A DNA stretch of 63,287 bases, from contig CAMCXK010000007.1 of NCBI GenBank assembly GCA_945883435.1, positions 1-63,287 of the forward strand, read 5' to 3'. Made by a program: the position numbers and the translations under genes. Under the pieces are notes generated by a model, which worked only from the letters and a program-made list of their open reading frames with translations, did no database searches and was not told the origin of the DNA. This document shows, piece after piece, positions 440 through 535 of the stretch (position 1 is its first letter; the number at the start of each line of letters is the position of its first letter). Source of the stretch: Chthoniobacter flavus. Its GTDB lineage: Bacteria > Verrucomicrobiota > Verrucomicrobiia > Chthoniobacterales > Terrimicrobiaceae.

Positions 440-451
440 GAAGTGGTGGCT

Positions 452-535
452 TTAGAGGCGCTGGCAGCCCCTGAGATAGGCAGCTCCCGAAAGAATAAGC
501 AAAATGATCACTGCAACGGGAGCCATATCAGACAT
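452..535 (-). CDS. 27-aa membrane micropeptide heading the kdp operon
   Basis: A short ORF begins at the ATG at 535 (MSDMAPVAVIIL) and ends AYLRGCQRL. It has a single hydrophobic helix (residues 5-21) followed by a polar, Cys-containing basic tail. Its position directly ahead of kdpF, same strand, 12-nt spacing and the same length as KdpF argue that it is a real first gene of the operon. From memory, similar peptides ending in a G-C-[DEQ]-R-L tail precede kdpF in other phyla, but I cannot verify this here. Function unknown; an accessory subunit or a regulator of the pump is possible. A second ATG at codon 4 could also serve as start. Confidence 0.6.
   Translation of the reverse strand: MSDMAPVAVIILLILSGAAYLRGCQRL

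Follow-up and report, generated by a model that had tools for sequence, protein, structure and literature searches.

A small gene next to kdpF

The window (the whole stretch of DNA that was analysed, 63,287 nt from an assembly assigned to Chthoniobacter flavus) opens on kdp genes read from the minus strand. Positions 3-341 hold the N-terminal part of kdpA, cut at the contig end (PF03814, E 2.1e-25; TIGR00680, E 9e-27), and positions 356-439 hold kdpF, whose 27-residue product ends in PEKF and is recognised by PF09604 (E 1.6e-7; 31.5 bits, cut-off 21.2), its TIGR02115 score being 25.5 bits with a cut-off of 26.85. A 12-nt spacer (440-451, minus strand) lies between the kdpF start and the stop codon of a further minus-strand ORF at 452-535 (ATG at 535, stop at 452-454), which encodes a 27-residue micropeptide with a single predicted hydrophobic helix, MSDMAPVAVIILLILSGAAYLRGCQRL. 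A preliminary description of this DNA had singled out the ORF for its GCQRL ending and for its position 12 nt 5' of kdpF, on the same strand and of the same length, and the coordinates agree. The ORF gives nothing above cut-off with the models of Pfam or NCBIfam, while Pfam does recognise its neighbours KdpF and KdpA.

The peptide consists of an M-x-D N-terminus, the hydrophobic helix and the tail Y-L-R-G-C-Q-R-L. An alternative in-frame TTG would lengthen it to 34 residues (452-556); the alignment of relatives, which has M-x-D at positions 1-3, supports the ATG as the probable start. The copy in the window is without the F13-F14 pair present in most relatives, and its residue 25 is Q, a position held by E or D in most of them.

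A scan near the gene found no promoter-like or terminator-like site, and a search for regulatory RNA turned up no more than an RsmY-like match below threshold, at 1223-1262. On the opposite strand, adjoining the kdp operon, a gene at 690-1223 may encode an outer-membrane beta-barrel, judging by a weak match to PF13505 (E 0.021). The window's assembly, 97.6% complete, contains neither the remainder of kdpA nor a KdpB above cut-off, and KdpA was found in none of 15 other examined genomes of the genus. The operon may have been acquired, lost in assembly or misbinned.

A family upstream of kdpA

The preliminary description had also placed similar peptides ahead of kdpF in other phyla. The claim was sound, as judged by a survey of the DNA upstream of kdpA at 377 loci. 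These came from draws centred on Verrucomicrobiota, Pseudomonadota, Acidobacteriota, Chloroflexota, Planctomycetota and Cyanobacteriota, each labelled with the phylum of its centre genome, from 76 of 80 loci of named genomes and from 17 plasmid records. Several of the named loci overlap the draws (for example L096/L172, L070/L192, L088/L217, L106/L266, L124/L241 and L010/L056). Loci were left out where the match begins at a contig edge (L069, L082, L093, L130) or leaves merely 24 nt upstream (L187), and no use was made of two C-terminal fragments of KdpA (L022, L024) or of weak matches to its C-terminal half (L254-L262). Fifteen full-length matches from Cyanobacteriota, either second copies or entries not fetched, lay outside the survey. 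So did nine partial or edge matches that hold the KdpA N-terminus (G388:C412, G396, G488, G645:C64, G666, G709, G718, G294:C433 and G1094), the first three of which carry the peptide all the same.

Into a first profile went 17 peptides from other Verrucomicrobiota loci, without that of the window, whose peptide it scores at 15.9 bits. With the same profile, the rest of the window, cut into 178 chunks of 700 nt and read on both strands, has no match that reaches 6 bits, and none of the 377 reverse strands of the kdpA-upstream regions reaches 10 bits. At that threshold of at least 10 bits the profile finds the peptide in 37 of 78 regions from the Pseudomonadota draw, 19 of 32 from Acidobacteriota, 19 of 45 from Chloroflexota, 4 of 13 from Planctomycetota, 6 of 49 from the Cyanobacteriota-centred draw and 7 of 17 from plasmids, and no region of these sets had contributed to the profile.

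An iterated profile, built in two rounds on its own matches and hence in-sample, sorts 376 regions as follows: the peptide and kdpF occur together in 241, kdpF alone in 53 and the peptide alone in 5, while 77 have neither; the 80 named loci are enriched for the peptide because they were chosen as best matches to peptide-bearing KdpA. It finds nothing on the reverse strands of the survey regions. If attention is confined to the six draws, the same in-sample profile finds the peptide in 157 of 203 kdpF-bearing regions. By draw these are 58 of 75 in Pseudomonadota, 21 of 31 in Acidobacteriota, 39 of 45 in Chloroflexota, 7 of 11 in Planctomycetota and 6 of 8 in the Cyanobacteriota-centred draw, and 26 of 33 in the Verrucomicrobiota set, which pools two collections of genomes, so that relatives of the window's order are over-weighted. 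Both peptide and kdpF are absent in 39 of the 49 Cyanobacteriota-centred regions.

Carriers among the named genomes include Acidobacteriota, Aminicenantes, Myxococcus, Gemmatimonadetes, Chloroflexi, Planctomycetaceae, Melainabacteria and alpha-, beta- and gammaproteobacteria, and 30 loci from a plasmid collection add Deinococcus, Streptomyces, Rhodococcus, Arthrobacter, Bacillus badius and Subdoligranulum. No copy was found at the examined loci of E. coli, Staphylococcus epidermidis, Halobacterium, Acinetobacter, Picosynechococcus, Lactiplantibacillus and Tsukamurella. Since 53 of 294 kdpF-bearing regions have no detected copy, the peptide is not indispensable; some of the loci scored as absent (L050, L141, L361) hold divergent candidates below threshold. 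A tblastn search of plasmids with the Streptomyces peptide gave no match, its own record included, 27 divergent residues being too few.

In six loci from the Acidobacteriota draw that lack the peptide (L197, L200, L201, L205, L207, L210), a different ORF of 55-60 residues, probably with two helices, precedes kdpF and possibly replaces the peptide. At L010/L056 and L011 there is a second, longer ORF 5' of the peptide, between about 390 and 235-276 nt ahead of the kdpA match; it resembles the peptide in its helix and C-E-K stretch and is possibly a duplicate.

Conserved residues and coding evidence

Across genomes the 246 copies typically end in C-[ED]-[RK]-L, and the consensus reads M-x-D-L...F-F...Y...C-x-R-L. 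Asp3 is conserved in 227 copies, Phe13 in 160, Phe14 in 192 and Tyr or Phe at position 20 in 173; in the tail, Cys24 is found in 182, Glu or Asp at 25 in 177, Arg or Lys at 26 in 185 and Leu27 in 168. The start codon is ATG in 225 of the 246, and 194 have a Shine-Dalgarno-like tetramer just 5', as against 16% at random positions.

The peptide sequence is under purifying selection. In 46 independent pairs of related copies the in-frame pN/pS is 0.31, against 1.07 and 1.66 for the two shifted frames, and the same pairs show 203, 117 and 361 substitutions at codon positions 1, 2 and 3. What lies upstream of kdpA is a real, widespread and unnamed gene family linked to KdpA and KdpF.

An attachment to kdpA and kdpF

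Searched with the profile, 240 whole genomes of Verrucomicrobiota gave 11 matches at E ≤ 1e-3, all of them immediately 5' of KdpA, and in the window's genome nothing but its peptide matches at E ≤ 1 (E 1.1e-7, in-sample). In 249 genomes of Pseudomonadota, 34 of 36 matches at E ≤ 1e-3 lie beside KdpA, the exceptions being a stretch within a 611-residue frame (G456) and a 27-residue ORF (G307). A weaker match in G444 (E 0.002) lies close to a contig end, with kdpF after it and no KdpA. The ORF of G307 (L403; G307:C9:84620-84697) resembles the peptide at E 1.1e-4 and stands alone among unrelated genes, which by eye look like a sugar kinase and dioxygenases. One might take this single small ORF off kdp as a sign that the peptide does something that has nothing to do with Kdp and is merely co-transcribed with it, an idea that is hard to credit when 45 of the 47 whole-genome matches at E ≤ 1e-3 in the two phyla adjoin KdpA.

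The order is peptide, then kdpF, in 239 of the 241 loci that have both, and the gap between them has a median of 10 nt and is at most 30 nt in 219 of 240. The association outlasts changes of gene order and the absence of kdpF. In three loci (L253, L263, L264) the gene directly 5' of the peptide is KdpB (TIGR01497, 665-764 bits), and in a fourth (L335) the upstream frame has a C-terminus that by eye is KdpB-like; all four read kdpB-peptide-kdpA, with no kdpF detected. Neither is kdpF detected at L025, where the peptide gene and kdpA share 4 nt. In Deinococcus radiodurans the order is kdpB, then peptide, kdpF and kdpA. That the peptide stays with kdpA and kdpF in rearranged operons argues against a 5' leader and for an accessory subunit.

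A leader has something to recommend it nonetheless. In 61 of 240 loci there is an overlap of 1 or 4 nt between the stop of the peptide and the start of kdpF, as might be expected of a translational coupler, in which translation matters and the peptide does not. The stretch before kdpF is described as 5' UTR in Mycobacterium smegmatis, where the start site is 120 bp before kdpF (PMC5401905), and a structured 5' UTR of about 100 nt is predicted there in Caulobacter (PMC8552747); either stretch is long enough to hold the peptide ORF. It is too much to ask of a leader, however, that its residues (D3, F14 and C24 at the frequencies given above) be conserved across phyla with pN/pS at 0.31, and a leader makes no sense inside an operon after kdpB. 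A leader or coupler is thus quite unlikely. A leader peptide or attenuator of the known kind would lie at the 5' end of its operon and have an unconserved sequence; the peptide lies within the operon at L253, L263, L264 and L335, and its sequence is conserved.

What lies 5' of the peptide varies. At seven loci it is a kinase gene of HAMP-HisKA-HATPase type, with PAS_4 in five of the seven; in four of these (L065, L066, L067, L206) the kinase's stop overlaps the peptide's start by 4 nt, and in the other three (L012, L054, L064) the kinase also lies directly 5'. Some small membrane proteins, MgrB for example, act on sensor kinases, and the overlaps would suit a peptide that regulates KdpD or another kinase in the membrane and is no part of the pump. 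Yet no KdpD model is among the matches listed for these kinases, the same place is taken at other loci by porins, response regulators or KdpB, and the constant neighbours are kdpF and kdpA, all of which makes a kinase regulator unlikely. At five loci (L019, L071, L079, L184, L195) a same-strand gene for a BBP2 (OmpL-like) porin lies directly 5' of the peptide-kdp genes; the porin is possibly an outer-membrane partner for K+ uptake.

Presence of the peptide on a tree of 276 KdpA proteins requires 17 changes (12 of them forced by the starred branches), compared with 66.9 when labels are shuffled: the peptide is inherited with the pump and occasionally gained or lost. Independent pairs on the same tree, few of them informative, show no significant tracking between changes in the peptide and changes in kdpF. 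The length of KdpA shows no link to the peptide, with medians of 546 and 550 residues.

Relation to KdpF and to other small peptides

The peptide and KdpF are alike in having about 27 residues, a single predicted hydrophobic helix, an uncharged or acidic start and a basic end, and in being neighbours in one operon. Equal length, adjacency and the same inferred orientation might lead one to regard the peptide as a divergent second copy of KdpF, the more so as five loci have the peptide by itself where kdpF would be. The conserved residues speak otherwise: KdpF has YL in 238 of 240 copies and a P-[ED] tail in 221 of 240, whereas the peptide lacks the YL core and the P-E-x-F tail and has instead D3, FF and C-E-R-L. 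A profile comparison by hhalign gives 13% probability over 12 columns, and no KdpF seed exceeds 3.4 bits when scored by the profile of the peptide. A second KdpF is very unlikely, though a very old duplication from KdpF is conceivable.

The preliminary description called the peptide unstudied, and for the most part this stands. None of 63 members matches any model of Pfam or NCBIfam at E ≤ 0.01, and a literature search on small Kdp peptides found no description of such a family. The claim must be tempered by Clostridium acetobutylicum, where Treuner-Lange reportedly saw in 1997 two small hydrophobic ORFs ahead of kdpA. No family or function is known to have been described for the first of them, orfZ or kdpZ, whose likeness to the peptide is one of gene order: it is the first of two small ORFs before kdpA, as is the peptide in the 239 of 241 loci mentioned above. 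The layout, cited as a kdpZYABCXDE transcript in PMC5401905, is a probable precedent.

The operon of Sinorhizobium fredii is described in PMC9239096 as kdpFABC only; tblastn finds the peptide 5' of kdpA in an S. fredii record. A relative of the Rhizobium leguminosarum peptide occurs in 40 listed plasmid records, of which 3 call it a hypothetical protein, 33 have nothing there and 4 are unannotated, counts to be read with the incompleteness of the PLSDB annotation tables in mind.

Single-helix regulators of P-type ATPases are familiar from phospholamban and sarcolipin and, in bacteria, from MgtR and MgtS. These are single-pass peptides thought to act on a P-type ATPase, as is proposed here for the peptide, with no claim of a relation in sequence; phospholamban differs in not being encoded in its pump's own operon. 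The peptide likely belongs with the small accessory membrane peptides of ion pumps, and it likely functions as a pump subunit.

A second small subunit of Kdp?

I propose that the peptide is a second small accessory subunit of Kdp, the K+-pumping P-type ATPase, a reading to which I would give a probability of about 0.72. Its hydrophobic span is about 20 residues. The first five residues carry on average 0.008 K or R and 0.98 D or E, while those from residue 21 on carry 1.84 K or R, a charge bias that matches that of KdpF. The basic end of a membrane helix lies in the cytoplasm by the positive-inside rule, so the N-terminus of the putative single-pass peptide is predicted to be outside and the C-terminus inside. 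The helix would pack sideways on the membrane part of the Kdp complex, like KdpF, and once packed would stabilise or tune the complex. By this account the gene would be translated in the window's organism, and its product would bind KdpA or KdpB and affect pumping.

On a helix the conserved positions D3, F/Y6, T10, F13/F14, S17, Y20/V21 and C24 cluster on one face, within about 75 degrees, and the one-sidedness of conservation over 20 core positions is borderline (p 0.058). Covariation between the peptide and KdpF is not above that seen on permutation within neighbours (p 0.73), leaving contact with KdpF in particular unsupported and KdpA or KdpB as likely. No chain in the PDB resembles the peptide (best E 1.3). 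The PDB matches to KdpA are three near-identical sequences of 557 residues, presumably all from E. coli.

One may go further and suppose that most Kdp pumps of the kdpF type are complexes of five polypeptides with the peptide as a standing subunit, and that E. coli, from which all the structures come, is an exception by reduction. Its two working ends would then be Asp3 on the outside, which hardly varies, and the C-[ED]-[RK]-L tail of the peptide on the inside, the cysteine perhaps serving as a redox or lipid-facing switch. This wider picture is tentative, and I would sooner bet against it than for it.

What the peptide means for Kdp

Annotation usually misses this peptide, which lies beside kdpF or kdpA in many bacterial phyla. 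With the gene so rarely annotated, mutant and proteomic studies in rhizobia, Deinococcus and others have likely passed it over, and the family provides a test set for how tiny genes get missed. Kdp is the textbook high-affinity K+ pump, with many solved structures. If most of its relatives carry one more transmembrane subunit, then the mechanistic models built on those structures would rest on an atypical member.
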